Origin: Lachnospiraceae bacterium
GTDB taxonomy: Bacteria; Bacillota; Clostridia; Lachnospirales; Lachnospiraceae
Reading direction: 5' to 3'
NCBI GenBank assembly: GCA_900168235.1
Contig: FUZG01000002.1
Coordinates: forward strand, 310,001 to 374,000
DNA: 64,000 nt
Made by a program: the position numbers and the translations under genes. Under the pieces are notes generated by a model. It did no database searches and was not told the DNA's origin. It was given only the letters and a program-made list of their open reading frames with translations. Position 1 is the stretch's first letter. The number at the start of each line of letters is the position of its first letter. Below, one piece after another: positions 22,769-50,819 of the stretch.

Positions 22769-23962
22769 ATGGCTAAAGCTAAATTTGAGAGAACTAAGCC
22801 CCATGTTAACATTGGTACAATCGGCCACGTTGACCATGGTAAGACAACCCTGACAGCAGCTATCACAAGCGTACTTGCTGATAGAGTTGCAGGTAATGCA
22901 AAGGTTGATTTCGAGAACATCGATAAGGCTCCGGAAGAAAGAGAGCGTGGTATCACTATCTCTACAGCACACGTTGAGTACGAGACAGAGACACGTCACT
23001 ATGCTCACGTTGACTGCCCTGGTCATGCTGACTATGTAAAGAACATGATCACTGGTGCAGCTCAGATGGATGGTGCTATCCTCGTTGTTGCTGCAACTGA
23101 TGGTGTTATGGCTCAGACTAAGGAGCACGTTCTTCTTGCTCGTCAGGTAGGCGTTCCTTACATCGTAGTATTCCTTAACAAGTGCGATATGGTTGATGAT
23201 CCTGAGCTTATTGAGCTCGTTGAGATGGAGATCAGAGACCTTCTTACAGAGTACGAGTTCCCGGGCGATGACACTCCGATCATCCAGGGTTCTGCTCTTA
23301 AGGCTCTTGAGGATCCTCACGGTGAGTGGGGCGATAAGATCCTTGAGCTTATGGCTGCAGTTGATTCTTACATCCCGACTCCTCAGCGTCCTACAGACAA
23401 GCCGTTCCTTATGCCGGTTGAGGACGTATTCACAATCACAGGTCGTGGTACAGTTGCTACAGGTCGTGTAGAGCGTGGTGTAATTCACCTTAACGACGAA
23501 GTTGAAATCGTTGGTATCAAGGAAGAAATTAAGAAGACAGTTGTAACTGGTATCGAGATGTTCCGTAAGCTCCTCGATCAGGGTGAAGCTGGTGATAACA
23601 TCGGTGCACTCCTTCGTGGTGTTGATCGTAAGGATATCGAGCGTGGTCAGGTTCTTGCTGTTCCGGGAACAGTTACATGCCACACCAAGTTCACAGCTCA
23701 GGTTTACGTTCTTACAAAGGACGAGGGTGGACGTCACACACCTTTCTTCAACAACTACCGTCCTCAGTTCTACTTCAGAACAACAGACGTTACTGGTGTG
23801 ATCAACCTTCCTGAGGGAACAGAGATGTGCATGCCTGGCGATAACGTTGAGATGACAATCGAGCTCATCCACCCGATCGCTATGGAGCAGGGTCTTACAT
23901 TCGCTATCCGTGAGGGTGGTAGAACAGTAGGATCTGGAAGAGTTGCTTCCATCATCGAGTAA
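22769..23962 (+). CDS. tuf: Translation elongation factor Tu
   Basis: 397 residues, normal length. G1 [10 protein letters not shown]2 RGITIS, G3 DCPGHADY and G4 NKCDMVD are intact; domains II and III follow to the C-terminal [15 protein letters not shown]. It delivers aminoacyl-tRNA to the ribosome. It has its own promoter in addition to possible readthrough from fusA. Its last 54 bases, stop codon and terminator are duplicated 2.4 kb downstream, where they form the far boundary of a decayed integrative element; the complete reading frame is retained on this side. Confidence 0.99.
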
Positions 23963-24102
23963 TTCGATCTTACTAGATAGAATTTATACTTAGAATCACT
24001 GTAATCCTAGTGTTTATCAGTGTTTCGCATATCTGAATAGATATTTGTCCAAGCATAAATTAAGGGCTGATTCCTTCGGGAGTCAGCTCTTTTTTGATAC
24101 TT
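23909..24102 (+). repeat. Left copy of the tuf 3'-end duplication (putative attL)
   Basis: 194 bp covering the last 54 bases of tuf and the terminator region after it. It matches 26351-26634 base for base in length once a 90-bp insertion there is removed, with about 8 mismatches, all downstream of the stop codon. Some of these are paired changes in the terminator stem. Confidence 0.85.
24063..24095 (+). terminator. tuf terminator (left copy)
   Basis: GGGCTGAxxCC-ttcg-GGxxTCAGCTC followed by six T. The right-hand copy is at 26595-26627 with a differently based but still paired stem. Confidence 0.8.
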
Positions 24103-24112
24103 GGAAAGACTC

Positions 24113-24130
24113 GTGGTACCTTTTTGGTAC
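24113..24130 (+). repeat. 18-bp direct repeat, left copy (candidate integrase arm site)
   Basis: GTGGTACCTTTTTGGTAC, identical to 26232-26249 in the same orientation, just inside both ends of the element. Each copy itself contains two GGTAC units separated by five T residues. Confidence 0.6.
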
Positions 24131-24148
24131 CTTTTTTTCGAAAAAAAA

Positions 24149-24195
24149 GATGCACTGACACCAAAATGACTTTGGTAATCAGTGCATTTTTTATT
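24149..24195. terminator. Terminator of the XRE repressor gene
   Basis: TGCACTGA paired with TCAGTGCA, with an inner ACCAAA/TTTGGT helix, flanked by A- and T-runs; it can work in both directions. Confidence 0.75.
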
Positions 24196-24202
24196 TTAAA
24201 AA

Positions 24203-24703
24203 TCAAATAAGTTTTATAGGAGTCTTGAATGAATGAAGTAAATCATCAAACCAGATTTTGTATTCGTCATAATCGATCAGATCATTATCAAGTTTTTCGT
24301 TAAGCTCATTCCAACCGTTAAGTAATGACGCGATCTGAGGATTATCAATGGATATCGTAGAAGTAAGGGTGTGGGTGTCCTTGTTAGCGGAAACACTGGT
24401 TTTAACCGGAATATTGTTACTTTTTAGCGTATCCAGTATTAAAAGAAGATCGGCATAGTTATTTGGATGTTCATTTGTCTGTTTAGGAGTATTAAAACCA
24501 AAAAACGTGTCCAGGGAAATACCCAAAATATTACAGAAGGCTTCGATTATCTCCATCGGAGGCTCGCTGTATCCATTCTCGTAGTTGGAATAACTGGGGA
24601 CGGAAAGATCCAGTTTAGCTGCCATATTTTTCTGAGTTATCCCGGAGTTTTGTCTTAGGGTTTTCATTTTTTTATCTATTTCTAAATAGTGTGAGATTCT
24701 CAT
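24203..24703 (-). CDS. XRE family repressor of the integrative element
   Basis: 166 residues. A Cro/CI-type helix-turn-helix occupies residues 12-65 (LRQNSGITQKNMAAKLDL, then SVPSYSNYENGYSEPPMEII). The C-terminal half has no recognisable domain and is rich in Leu/Asn/Asp. It is divergent from the excisionase-like gene, a layout typical for repressors of conjugative or phage-like elements, and so probably controls the promoter at 24815-24843. Confidence 0.8.
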   Translation of the reverse strand: MRISHYLEIDKKMKTLRQNSGITQKNMAAKLDLSVPSYSNYENGYSEPPMEIIEAFCNILGISLDTFFGFNTPKQTNEHPNNYADLLLILDTLKSNNIPVKTSVSANKDTHTLTSTISIDNPQIASLLNGWNELNEKLDNDLIDYDEYKIWFDDLLHSFKTPIKLI

Positions 24704-24814
24704 AGATCTCTGTCCTTCCTAGTATTTATGGCATTTAGATAGTCCAATAGTATCACAAAAGAATTAGTATATAAATATTTTGTATCAATATATTAAAAAA
24801 CTAATATTTAAATG

Positions 24815-24843
24815 TTGACATATTAGGTATTTAATAATACTAT
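24815..24843 (+). promoter_or_regulatory. Promoter for the excisionase-like and integrase genes
   Basis: TTGACA (24815-24820), 17-bp spacer, TACTAT (24838-24843). It is surrounded by several ATTAGT/ACTAAT-like words in both orientations (24760-24870), plausible repressor sites. Confidence 0.6.
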
Positions 24844-24898
24844 TAACTACAAGAAATCTAATAATCATATTAAAAAATTAATAAGGGAGGTAAAAGAA

Positions 24899-25096
24899 AT
24901 GAAATCGAATTTTATGATGAATGCGGAAGATGTGGCAAATGCATTAGGAGTATCAAAAGGACATGCATACAAGGTTATCCGGGAGCTGAATGATGAGCTT
25001 TCAGATCAGGGATTCATAATTGTAGCAGGAAAAGTTCCGAAGGCATTTTGGGAAAAGAAGTTCTTTGGATATCACTCAGAAAAGGTAGCGATTTAA
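24899..25096 (+). CDS. Excisionase-like small DNA-binding protein
   Basis: 65 residues with a strong GGGAGG ribosome site. NAEDVANALGVSKGHAYKVIRELNDEL is a winged-helix/MerR-like recognition segment of the type found directly upstream of integrases in Lachnospiraceae elements. It lies 9 bases before the integrase remnant and is cotranscribed with it. The protein looks complete. Function as a recombination directionality factor is inferred from position and size. Confidence 0.7.
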   Translation: MKSNFMMNAEDVANALGVSKGHAYKVIRELNDELSDQGFIIVAGKVPKAFWEKKFFGYHSEKVAI

Positions 25097-25105
25097 GGAG
25101 GGACG

Positions 25106-25714
25106 ATGCCGGCATACAAAGAGAAAGATGGAACCTGGTCAGTCTCTTTTCATTATCAAGACTGGACGGGAGCTAAAAGGAGAAAACACAAAAGAGGATT
25201 TAAAACCAAAAAGCAGGCTCAGATATTTGAATCGGAATTTAAGCTTGCATCGAAAGCAGATTTGTCGATGAAAATGAAAGACTTCATCGAGATTTATTTC
25301 AACGATAAGGAAAATGAATTAAAAGCAAGAACGAAAAAGAATAAGGCATATATGATAAATGCCTATATCACCAGATTCTTTGGAAGTAAAGCGGTGAATG
25401 AGATAACTCCGGCGGACATTATAGCCTGGCAAAATGAGATAAAAGAGAAAAATTCCTTTTCAGAATCTTATCTTCGAATGATTCAAAATCAATTAACTGC
25501 TTTATTTACACATGCGGAGAAGATATACGGATTAAAGAGCAATCCTTGTAAAAAAGTAAAGAAAATGGGCAACTCGGATGGTCGAAGCCTGAATTTCTGG
25601 ACAAGGCAGGAATATGACAAATTTATCAGCACATTTGAAAAGGGTTATCATGTAATGATTTGCAAATATAATCGAAGCACGTTTATTCCCATGCAATATA
25701 ATCAGTGGTTTTAA
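25106..25714 (+). pseudogene. Tyrosine integrase, truncated before the catalytic domain
   Basis: 202 residues remain of about 380-400. The N-terminal AP2-like arm-binding domain (YKEKDGTWSVSFHYQDWTGAKRR...) and the SAM-like core-binding domain (about 55-160) are intact, and the catalytic domain opens with LNFWTRQEYDKFI. After about residue 183 the sequence changes to unrelated residues and stops at 25714, so the R...HxxR...Y active site is missing. The ribosome site AAGGAGGGACG overlaps the end of the upstream gene. The truncation explains why the element is fixed. Confidence 0.85.
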
Positions 25715-26001
25715 TTGAATTTCTACCGGCGACAGTATATATTAAAAATGCGAAGAAAATTCTTTGACATATCTAGGTATGATATAAAGGTCTGAATATA
25801 GACTATATAATTGTTAGAGAGGTCCTGCTTTAGTGGACGATTCAAAATAATGGGTTGTTTGTGAATGCAAGCAACCCATTTTTAGTGTGGAAAAATTGTA
25901 ATCAAGTATGGGCAAGGTTCCTTTTTATTGTTGAGCCGAAAAATACAAGTGGTGTAAAATTATAGAAACTTATAAAGTGCGAAATAATTGGAGAAAATAA
26001 A

Positions 26002-26175
26002 TTGACACTTGCTGAATTTGAAAATGACATTAAAAACGGAGAATCGCTAACGGTTGAGTTTAAGTCTTGGGTAAAGGCTAAAACCATGAAGGAGCGAATT
26101 ACACTTGCTGTAGATGAGCTTGTGGCATTTGCTAATGCAAAGGGAAGATCGAGTAGGTATTTAAAAACTCGATAA
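26002..26175 (+). pseudogene. Truncated AlbA_2 (Schlafen/RecG-like regulator) fragment
   Basis: 57 codons from TTG 26002, after GGAG at 25990-25993. LTLAEFENDIKNGESLTVEFK and ERITLAVDELVAFANAKG match the start of AlbA_2 domain proteins (GExxxxEFK...A.ANxxGG). The sequence breaks just where the conserved GGxxxxGV strand should follow, in a run of AAAACTCG-like short tandem repeats (26165-26200). The 25715-26001 gap before it shows a GGGTTG/CAACCC hairpin with T-run (about 25852-25882) and nothing else. Confidence 0.5.
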
Positions 26176-26231
26176 AAACTCGAAAAAACTCGAAAAACTC
26201 AAATTAGAAATTAATGGCACTATTTTTTAGT

Positions 26232-26249
26232 GGTACCTTTTTGGTACTT
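26232..26249 (+). repeat. 18-bp direct repeat, right copy (candidate integrase arm site)
   Basis: Identical to 24113-24130. The remaining bases 26176-26350 show no gene. Confidence 0.6.
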
Positions 26250-26350
26250 TAAAATTAAAAAACGAATAATAATATGGCAAATATGAATAATATGCAGAAA
26301 TAAACCCAGTAAAATCAATATGTTTCACGACGATTATATACTGATAAAAT

Positions 26351-26634
26351 CGTGAGGGTGGTAGAACAGTAGGATCTGGAAGAGTTGCTTCCATCATCGA
26401 GTAATTGTGCGGAGCACTTAGCGAGGTATTACCGAGCTTAGTGCGTGCCATGCAAGTACGCTTGGCGAGGTATTATCGAGCTTAGCGTAACTTGTTCGAT
26501 CTTACTAGATAGAATTTACATTTAGAATCACTGTAATCCTTGTGTTTATCAGTGTTTCGCATATCTGAATAGATATTTGTCCAAGCATAAATTAAGGGCT
26601 GGCTTCTTCGGAAGTCAGCCCTTTTTTGATACTT
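26351..26634 (+). repeat. Right copy of the tuf 3'-end duplication (putative attR), split by an 88-bp repeat
   Basis: Repeats the last 17 codons of tuf plus stop and terminator. In-frame stops lie directly upstream, so it is not translated. Its length is exactly 90 bp more than the left copy, accounted for by the 88-bp element at 26407-26494 plus a duplicated TT. Confidence 0.85.
26407..26494 (+). repeat. 88-bp double-hairpin interspersed repeat, copy 1
   Basis: Begins GTGCGGAGCACTTAGCGAGG and ends with AACTTG. It contains two hairpins (GCACTTAGC/GCTTAGTGC, and CAAGTACGCT/AGCGTAACTTG). The same 88 bases without gaps recur at 44228-44315 with paired substitutions. It interrupts the tuf-end duplicate between two TT dinucleotides. 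Confidence 0.8.
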
Positions 26635-44188: not shown

Positions 44189-44227
44189 ATGCGCGTCCAT
44201 CCTGTCAGGCTGGACGCGTGTGTTATT
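44189..44227 (+). terminator. Probable terminator of glgP
   Basis: CGCGTCCA paired with TGGACGCG in an 11-nt loop; the following T-run is poor, and the 88-bp repeat begins directly afterwards. Confidence 0.5.
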
Positions 44228-44315
44228 GTGCGGAGCACTTGGCGAGGTATTTTCGAGCCTAGTGCGTGCCATGCAAATTCACTTAGCAAGGTATTTTCGA
44301 GCTTAGTGAGATTTG
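44228..44315 (+). repeat. 88-bp double-hairpin interspersed repeat, copy 2
   Basis: Same length and ends as 26407-26494 (GTGCGGAGCACTTGGCGAGG start, GATTTG end). Hairpin one here is CACTTGGC/GCCTAGTG against CACTTAGC/GCTTAGTG in copy 1; hairpin two is CAAATTCACT/AGTGAGATTTG against CAAGTACGCT/AGCGTAACTTG. Substitutions occur on both sides of the stems so pairing is kept, including a single-base bulge. Confidence 0.8.
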
Positions 44316-44317
44316 CT

Positions 44318-44337
44318 GTGCGGAGCACTTAGCGAGG
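44318..44337 (+). repeat. Truncated copy of the 88-bp repeat
   Basis: The first 20 bases of the repeat (GTGCGGAGCACTTAGCGAGG) recur 2 bases after the full copy and then run into GAGAGTAAATG, the start of the next gene, so the repeat contributes part of its ribosome binding site. Confidence 0.75.
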
Positions 44338-44345
44338 GAGAGTAA

Positions 44346-45770
44346 ATGAAAAATTTCGGTATTCGGACAAGACTCATTTGCTTTGGAATGCTATCAGCAG
44401 GGAACGTGATCTTTCTTACGATACTGACTGCGTTTGATAAAAACGAGATGCAGATCATCATCGTGGGTATCATCATGTTCCTTTTTTTGACGGGATTAAG
44501 TATACAGCTTGTCATCAGCGTCGACAGGCTCATGAAGCTCAGTATGGATTACATCGAGCGCATGGGCACCGGAAACTTTACAGAGGATATCCCGGAGGCG
44601 CTGAAAGTCCGTAAGGATGAATTTGGCAAGCTTGGCGACAGCATGCGTGAAATGAAGCGCGCTGTGGGACTCCTTATAGGAAATGTAAAAAATCAGGCAG
44701 AAGGCATTGAAGAAGCTGTACTCAGCATCAATGATTCCGTAGGTGAGCTGAATACAGGTATTTCTGATGTTGCATCCAATACTGAGGCGCTTGCTGAAGG
44801 CATGGAGAGAACTGCAGCTTCTACAGAGCAGATCCGCGGTGTATCAGAGGATATCCGGCTTGCCACAGAAGATATGACAGTAAGGGCAAAGGGCGGCGCA
44901 GACCACGTAAAAGAGATAAATTCCAAGTCAAAGCATGTTGAGAAACGCATGAATCAGCGAAGGAAGGACGTGGAGCAGCTTCTGCTGGAGATAAGCGACA
45001 GCCTGAAAAAAGCCCTTGAGGATGTAGAAGTTGTTGAACAGATCGATGTTCTCAGTAAATCTATCATGACGATCGCGAATAAGACAAATGTCCTTGCGCT
45101 TAACGCATCGATCGAGGCAGCGGGGGCCGGAGAAGCCGGAAAAGGATTTGCGGTTGTTGCTATAGAAGTCAGGAGACTCGCGGAGCAGAGTAAAGAGGCG
45201 GTTGAAAAGATCCTGGCAGTAACAAGTGCGGTGACAGGATCAGTAAAACAGCTTGCGGGGGATTCCTCGAGGCTTATGGAATTTGTCAGTAACGATGTAG
45301 GAAAGATGCTGGATAACTTTGGCGAGATCATGGATGGATACGACAAAGAGATCGATTATATAAATTGTCTTGTGTCTGATTTTGCGGATACAGCGAGCAG
45401 GCTTAACCAGCAGATATCCGGTATCATGGAAGCTATTGATGAGATAAGCAGTGCCGCTCAGGACGGTGCACAGAGCACAGCCCAGATAGCAGAACGTATA
45501 GAAAGCATCCGCGAACTTTCCCAGAATGTAGTAAAGGAAGCGGGTAAGACCGAGGAAACGGTAGAGATCCTTGACTACGAGGTGGCAAAGATCGCCGTAC
45601 TCTCAGAAGATGAAGACTATGCCGAACGCCGTGAATATGATGATATAGATTATGACTATGAATACGAAGATGACGACGAAGAGTATGAGGACGATGAAGA
45701 ATACGAGGATGATGAAGAGTACGAAGCCGACAGCGAATACGAGGAAGACGGAAACGAAGAAGAAAATTAA
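44346..45770 (+). CDS. Methyl-accepting chemotaxis-like protein with an acidic Tyr/Glu/Asp tail
   Basis: 474 residues. Two adjacent membrane helices (residues 9-29 and 36-57) leave almost no external domain. A HAMP-like linker follows ([17 protein letters not shown]...), then long coiled coil and the signalling tip [22 protein letters not shown], slightly off the usual IEAARAGExGRGFAVVAdEV (Arg to Gly, Asp to Ile). From about residue 430 the chain becomes almost only D, E and Y in EYEDD-like repeats. It may act in chemotaxis-like or other clustered signalling inside the cell. Start ATG 44346 with GAGGGAGAG. Confidence 0.85.
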
Positions 45771-50414: not shown

Positions 50415-50819
50415 ATGGAAAACAGATATAACCGTCATAACAGGCGTAAATATAGTCTAAAAGTACATATAGTTTTAGTCACAAAGTACCGTAAGCAACT
50501 GCTCAGAAATTTTATCGCTGACGATGTAAAGCAAAAGATATACGATATCTGCAATTCTAAAGGTTACGGTATTATAGCTATGGAAACTGATAAAGACCAT
50601 ATACATTTTCTTATCAGCTATGATACAACGGACAGAGTTTGCGACATTGTAAAACTAATCAAACAGCAGACCACCTACTATCTGTGGCAAAAATATCCAA
50701 ACTTCCTGTCTAAACAGTATTGGAAGAAGAAAATCTTTTGGTCTGACGGATACTTCGCTTGTAGTATAGGCGAAGTATCATCAGCCACTATACAAAAGTA
50801 TATCGAGTGCCAAGGTTAA
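50415..50819 (+). CDS. tnpA: Y1 HUH transposase TnpA of the IS605-type element
   Basis: 134 residues. KVHIVLVTKYRKQLL starts the family fold, DKDHIHFLISYD carries the HUH metal motif (HIH), and the catalytic tyrosine is in TIQKYIECQG. It cuts and joins single-stranded DNA at the element ends as a dimer. Size is normal. No Shine-Dalgarno is visible ahead of its ATG. Confidence 0.93.
   Translation: MENRYNRHNRRKYSLKVHIVLVTKYRKQLLRNFIADDVKQKIYDICNSKGYGIIAMETDKDHIHFLISYDTTDRVCDIVKLIKQQTTYYLWQKYPNFLSKQYWKKKIFWSDGYFACSIGEVSSATIQKYIECQG

Follow-up and report, generated by a model that had tools for sequence, protein, structure and literature searches.

Group IIC introns insert behind intrinsic terminators in one orientation, and integron attC sites are folded single-strand recombination sites with variable stems. 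REP, BIME and REPIN sequences are described, in excerpts of PMC8266576, PMC6006769 and PMC3733652, as short palindromes with conserved mismatches that occur in many copies 3' of genes, and an excerpt of PMC2817692 remarks on compensating changes that keep the structure of REPs. For the CGTC-tagged REPs no dedicated transposase is known according to PMC3733652; the strings 'Firmicutes' and 'Clostridi' have 0 occurrences in that paper. PATEs, of the IS200/IS605 type, have no terminal inverted repeats, carry palindromes near both ends and are too short for a gene (PMC3119063, in excerpt).

The repeat described here was found as an 88-bp unit in a window of 64,000 nucleotides (the whole stretch of DNA that was analysed) of a Lachnospiraceae genome, below called the host genome. 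It has the REP-type look that an earlier reading of the letters alone (the sequence-only reading) had given it, being an imperfect palindrome in many copies, and it shares with REPs the conserved mismatches, the position 3' of genes and the compensating changes. It differs from them in the absence of a GTAG/GTGG tetranucleotide 5' of the hairpin (copies of the host genome mostly have CGGAG), in its two hairpins facing the same way, in its terminator target, and in having no linked RAYT (none in the host genome, and 10 loci of relatives free of the repeat). Like the CGTC-tagged REPs it has no known dedicated transposase, but their tag, stem and CCA tail, as given in that paper, differ from the unit; a CGTC/CGCC word precedes the core in a larger foldback repeat (type II, below), not in the unit of the window. 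The unit resembles PATEs in lacking terminal inverted repeats, in its palindromes near both ends and in being too short for a gene, but none of the IS200/IS605 loci found in the genome matches its palindromes (0 of 11 Y1 loci). Target and orientation are shared with group IIC introns; no intron domains were noticed and the genome gave no reverse transcriptase match. No integron boxes were recognised in the unit by eye. The unit is REP- and PATE-like in mechanism, yet it lacks the GTAG tag and the linked RAYT that mark REPs, and no IS200/IS605 element with ends like its own, as expected of a PATE, was found. New here are the terminator targeting, the apparent att-pair origin of the doubled tuf end, and a Lachnospiraceae-wide core hairpin that also tips a foldback repeat. 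No Rfam family matched the element at a cut-off as loose as E<=5, in line with the sequence-only reading, which did not know it as a described family, and no published description was seen among the titles and opening lines of abstracts screened, from a collection without most subscription journals.

The unit and the doubled tuf end

The features of the window are as follows.

22769-23962, + strand: tuf (EF-Tu)
23909-24102, + strand: tuf 3'-end copy without the repeat (empty site)
24203-24703, - strand: HTH_3 regulator between the two tuf ends
25106-25714, + strand: integrase fragment, Arm-DNA-bind_4 and Phage_int_SAM_3 (PF14659, PF14657), no catalytic domain matched
26351-26634, + strand: tuf 3'-end copy with the repeat (filled site)
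26405-26406, + strand: left TT border, directly 3' of the tuf-end stop codon TAA (26402-26404)
26407-26494, + strand: 88-bp unit, full two-hairpin copy (GTG plus 85-nt body, CGGAG...CTTG)
26414-26444, + strand: hairpin 1 of the unit, with T-T mismatch and tandem G-A mismatches
26453-26494, + strand: hairpin 2 of the unit, outer stem CAAGT/ACTTG
26495-26496, + strand: right TT border
26594-26627, + strand: terminator-like hairpin of tuf and its T-run, some 100 bp 3' of the inserted unit, read by eye
44228-44315, + strand: second full copy, behind a terminator-like hairpin (locus L047, -24.1 kcal/mol)
44318-44337, + strand: truncated third copy, comprising the first 20 nt, tandem to the second and just 5' of an ATG
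50415-50819, + strand: Y1 transposase (PF01797, 120.5 bits), no R1 repeat in its locus (L063)

The 3' end of tuf is doubled as had been noticed earlier, and the two copies align without gaps but for one 90-bp block in the right copy, made up of 88 bp between TT and TT. Positions 26351-26406 equal 23909-23964 at 100% (56 bp), and 26495-26634 equal 23963-24102 at 94.3% (140 bp). The same unit recurs at 44228-44315 (26401-26485 against 44222-44306, an 85-bp gap-free alignment at 87%). The two full units of the sequence-only reading therefore stand, and the truncated third copy at 44318-44337 had been overlooked. This copy continues, within 44318-44346, into GGGAGAGTAAATG just 5' of a gene start, and the repeat may supply part of the ribosome-binding region of the downstream gene.

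Folded as RNA, the + strand of the unit forms two hairpins at -36 kcal/mol (z -3.3), and the - strand folds at -26 kcal/mol (z -2.2). The strand preference is smaller with DNA parameters (-16.8 for the + strand, -14.5 for the - strand). Both hairpins point in the same direction. The stem is preceded on its 5' side mostly by CGGAG in the host genome and mostly by NGAG in relatives. There is no inverted repeat at the ends, whose end-to-end score of 8 was reached by 36% of shuffles; in the strict sense the term MITE, used before, does not apply. A classical MITE of a DDE transposon would share the small size and the many copies, but with ends that are not inverted repeats, hairpins that face the same way and one orientation relative to terminators such an origin is hardly credible.

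A plain duplication of the tuf end, as first read, is not supported: an integrase fragment lies between the two ends, and a filled copy is also present in the sister species G009. Judged by their anatomy, the two tuf ends (23909-26634) resemble the att copies that would flank a decayed integrative element. In G009, too, the repeat occupies this position in tuf (locus L099), so that the filled site probably represents the older state of the chromosome, the empty site probably having arrived with the integrative element. The unit sits directly after the stop codon of the tuf copy and before the tuf terminator, an exception to the terminator rule described below.

Copies, empty sites and targets

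The host genome (3.79 Mb, 28 contigs, 99.93% complete) is the one with the largest number of copies of the repeat. The tens of copies that a BLASTN check was expected to give were obtained (44 matches at E<=1e-3), and the covariance model that had also been suggested gave 111 matches at E<=1, or about 110 copies. When 3 mismatches were allowed, a left-end pattern of 19 nt had 113 matches, and its reversed control 5. From 139 loose left-end rows, 106 fitted the left-end pattern and 86 copies could be delimited, the 20 without a recognised right end being left out. These 86 comprise 47 with two hairpins (84-86 nt), 30 with one hairpin (40-41 nt) and 9 of 135-136 nt, in which the 3' arm of hairpin 1 is longer by about 50 bases. 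The extra bases of the 135/136-nt variant (loci L034, L107-L110, L113-L115, L117 and L119) begin with GGCTGAAATAGCAAATC. Identical sequence is found in 22 of the 86; the contig-edge copy C17:6 lies outside these 22, and 23 copies have their covariance-model score. Degenerate and half copies are frequent. By eye the one-hairpin copies look chimeric, joining the first half of hairpin 1 to the second half of hairpin 2. As the crossover points vary, their simplest origin is repeated deletion between the two 44-nt half units, which probably produced them.

The covariance model was run on 61 genomes, the host and 60 relatives. At E<=0.001 it matched in 14, all of the same genus (14 of 37); at E<=1e-3 the other 23 of the 37 gave no match, and none was found at E<=0.001 in 24 genomes of other families. 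The sequences vary with the species: the largest identical set of the host genome has mostly TTTT-CGGAG, and copies of G014, G009 and G031 have TTAT-GCGGAG.

The joined flanks of 12 copies (3000 bases) were used to query relatives for empty sites. The cleanest is at L023, where 253 query bases match G431 at 99% straight across the site; the terminator is there and the element is absent. At L009, L011 and L013, one to three relatives match contiguously across the site without the element, at L022 such a match is less clear, and the remaining 7 of the 12 loci gave no comparison across the site. The fetched empty sites contained no element ends other than one chance match in coding sequence. The unit is a recently active, non-autonomous mobile DNA repeat: identical copies at different sites (22) together with empty sites demand mobility. 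An inserted repeat with TT borders, as had been proposed, agrees with the empty site in 99%-identical DNA and with the recurrent borders at T's. The 2-bp target duplication that went with this proposal is not confirmed as a fixed feature, since filled minus empty is +90 bp at tuf and +88 bp at L023, where the difference falls within the T-tract. An 8-9 bp target duplication in TATAAT-type copies was considered and dropped, as it could be element-borne.

Target sites were assessed on 81 of the 86 copies, tandem and edge cases being removed, by folding 48-mers with a threshold of <= -10 kcal/mol. The upstream 48-mer reached the threshold in 75 of the 81 copies, the downstream 48-mers (reverse strand) in 8 of 81, and random 48-mers in 22% (n=1000). 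The last 12 nt 5' of the unit contain on average 7.2 T, against 3.5 downstream. The upstream ORF is on the same strand in 77 of 86 copies, at a median distance of 70 bp, and on the opposite strand in 9; 5 of the 86 lie inside a mechanical ORF of at least 80 aa. In the host genome the unit is thus found mostly directly 3' of an intrinsic-terminator-like hairpin and T-rich tract, in one orientation. Selection against other sites could add to this bias. A mobile element that chooses terminators gains a harmless and abundant landing site, and the unit could alter readthrough between genes.

Outside the host genome the terminator bias is weaker. Of 150 cores from other genomes, 87 resembled type II and 19 were second-hairpin cases, and these were not used; a strong upstream fold was found in 25 of the 44 left (two of which, L267 and L287, are from the genus of the host), against 27% of random sequences. 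Some two-hairpin units there lie instead directly behind TGGTATAAT or GGTATACT, most of them having a similar word at the right end too, as though they had entered an extended -10 box, which this word resembles; the 15 matches of this type include at least 2 false matches of the foldback type. Units behind such words are at L225, L241, L256, L273, L275, L288, L321, L330, L337 and L078. Terminator and -10-like sites could have in common a non-template strand that becomes single-stranded in the transcription bubble, and the unit offers a natural system for asking how transcription-exposed single-stranded DNA is targeted.

Structural constraint and candidate mobilising enzymes

The paired stem changes reported from the two window copies recur in the host genome, where 4 of 24 pairs show double changes among 19 copies. 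Covariation was evaluated on 70 of 73 hairpins, thinned from 178 distinct ones of the host genome and other Lachnospiraceae. The outer stem pairs vary jointly. Pairing cells amount to 90.5% (80.3% when shuffled) and doubly changed cells to 102 (39 in shuffles), and the covariation score is 0.307 (0.125 shuffled; slid controls 0.04-0.12), a value that 0 of 500 shuffles reached. The claim of structural constraint is upheld by this score. No excess over shuffles was seen among the 70 hairpins in pairs with a double change (5, against 5.0) or in further pair types (17, against 16.8). Five pairs out of 11 are constant, as are 17 columns; they are fixed by the selecting pattern and hence are no evidence, and the T-T and tandem G-A mismatches are likewise fixed in this set because the search pattern required both.

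An RNA-level function, which the sequence-only reading had seen in the paired changes, does not follow from them, since folding of single-stranded DNA would give the same covariation. The repeat might still be a selected RNA element, serving as processing, stability or anti-readthrough hairpins behind terminators and spread mainly by recombination, so that position and structure reflect function. Such an element would fit the strong covariation, the 77 of 86 copies downstream of a same-strand ORF, and the better folding of the + than of the - strand as RNA (-36 against -26 kcal/mol), which is less pronounced as DNA. We regard it as improbable: the 22 identical copies at different sites and the empty sites demand mobility, degenerate and half copies are common, most copies lie behind and not before the terminator (75 of 81 are behind a terminator-like hairpin), and 23 of 37 genomes of the genus have no match at E<=1e-3.

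The reading that we prefer, with a probability of about 0.55, is that of a small non-autonomous mobile repeat whose folded strand is read by a trans-acting enzyme, which inserts it as single-stranded DNA behind terminators. The enzyme would recognise the folded top strand, with the T-T and tandem G-A mismatches as marks and the stem sequence free. The element would move as single-stranded DNA and be joined to TT in the T-tract behind the terminator hairpin. After insertion its right end would again read 'hairpin then TT', which would explain the tandem copies. Candidates for the enzyme are a Y1 (HUH) transposase that works in trans and is of the IS200/IS605 or REP type, or else a novel hairpin-reading recombinase. 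Y1 enzymes act on hairpins according to excerpts of PMC8266576 and PMC6006769. Within the preferred reading a Y1 enzyme in trans is the most likely single enzyme, at somewhat less than even odds; it is the best single guess because the IS200 elements of the host genome are also behind hairpins, all five left ends seen following hairpins of -16 to -32 kcal/mol and starting at TTAT. These left ends behind terminator-like hairpins are at L060, L065, L066, L067 and L069; at L066 the preceding hairpin looks like part of another IS end. By eye the IS200 hairpins differ in sequence from the repeat. Because folding pairs A and T tracts, no fixed distance from stem to insertion is claimed. Four identical Y1 elements of G033 (L183-L186) are, by eye, not behind terminators.

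Y1 matches number 11 in the host genome, several being fragments that lie at contig ends. No transposase with similar ends, expected earlier as support, came to light when the fetched Y1 loci were examined: in 23 loci (11 from the host genome) neither the repeat model (0 matches) nor the core pattern matched. In 20 further Y1 loci there was one core-like hairpin, upstream of an IS605-type gene in G014 (L197). Any Y1 gene is present in 23 of 30 core-rich genomes and in 29 of 50 others (p = 0.15). RAYT-like genes are somewhat commoner in repeat-bearing genomes, namely 6 of 14 against 3 of 23 repeat-free ones in the same genus (p = 0.057) and at least 14 of 43 against at least 9 of 73 combined (p = 0.015), species not being independent. 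They carry a C-terminal extension. The host genome has no RAYT-like match, and 10 RAYT-like loci in relatives had no repeat within the fetched flanks. These Y1 genes, of about 190-280 aa, are at L153-L162 (G006, G013, G014, G020, G023, G025, G027, G028 and G033). An excerpt of PMC6006769 reports that no REP had been found for subclass 2.1 enzymes, which bear a helix-turn-helix end.

A host or element recombinase other than Y1 that reads hairpins, perhaps a single enzyme that serves all Lachnospiraceae hairpins of this family, the type II foldback repeat among them, is the less likely but still serious alternative. Y1 is absent in 7 of 30 core-rich Lachnospiraceae genomes, among them G064, which has 35 core matches, 100% completeness and no Y1 transposase match. 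Among the ORFs within 2.5 kb of cores at 100 loci (L203-L302), no mobile-enzyme cluster was common to 3 or more loci, and the same core is found in two architectures. Against such a recombinase stand the want of a candidate gene and the chance that type I and type II have different movers.

A retro-mobile element moved by a reverse transcriptase of the group IIC intron type would have the same target class and orientation, but it is largely refuted already and very improbable, with 0 RVT_1 matches in the 99.93%-complete genome that has the largest number of copies. An IS110/IS1111-type element with guide RNA and 2-bp core would explain the dinucleotide borders and the lack of terminal inverted repeats; the host genome has no IS110 match over the cut-off, only a single sub-cut-off one within a 1426-aa frame, and we give this origin next to no weight. 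A search for Y2 (IS91) gave 0 matches, as did its control. Two further candidates were dropped. The pair C28:4983/6767 had been considered as element ends, but it encloses an ORF, presumably glyoxalase-like, between two decayed copies. In B-type copies GTGCG had suggested the 5' end of a group II intron, but it is absent from the A-type.

The core hairpin in other Lachnospiraceae

The core hairpin, of 25 nt, occurs widely among the Lachnospiraceae, a large family of gut bacteria, and a larger foldback repeat has it at its tip as well. The core was found in at least 116 stretches of public genomes; where the 80 titles shown give a family or genus, it mostly belongs to the Lachnospiraceae (Butyrivibrio, Faecalicatena, Enterocloster, Dorea, Roseburia and others). 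When the pattern was loosened to CTTAGCGA N3-30 GAGCTTAG, it matched in 56 of 392 genomes of the order, 50 of 131 in the family and 6 of 261 elsewhere (reversed control: 6 matches in all). Some matches, which recur once per genome with one and the same sequence, look like coding sequence and hence chance. Rfam at the gathering score gave no match on the cores of 10 related loci, the sole match being an unrelated TPP riboswitch, and a search of virus, phage and plasmid collections for the repeat gave 0 matches.

In the foldback repeat (type II) the outer stem is a long inverted repeat, different from copy to copy, and the tip reads CCC..AACGYCGGYR - core - YRCCGYTRCGTT..GGAGCGARAGCGYG. All six cores in five fetched loci of G064 are of this type. 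Foldback repeats were seen at L226, L255, L238, L262, L227 and L244 and at the G064 and G380 loci L380-L390.

The two architectures might, tentatively and with the odds well against it, represent one Lachnospiraceae-wide class of mobile DNA. It would have one recognition hairpin (CTTRGCGAGG..CGAGCYTAG) with free outer stems and at least two architectures, the 88-bp unit and the long foldback. Its units would enter transcription bubbles on the non-template strand (in the host genus and Butyrivibrio-like genera at the T-tract of terminators, in other genera at extended -10 boxes, TGGTATAAT), and an unrecognised single-strand recombinase would move it. Being shared across the family, the core hairpin can serve directly as a marker in genome annotation and as a sequence lead in the search for the mobilising enzyme. 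In G170 and G425 (L393, L394, L395 and L398) hairpin units start with, or immediately follow, a probable stop codon; the site L393/L398 is common to both species.
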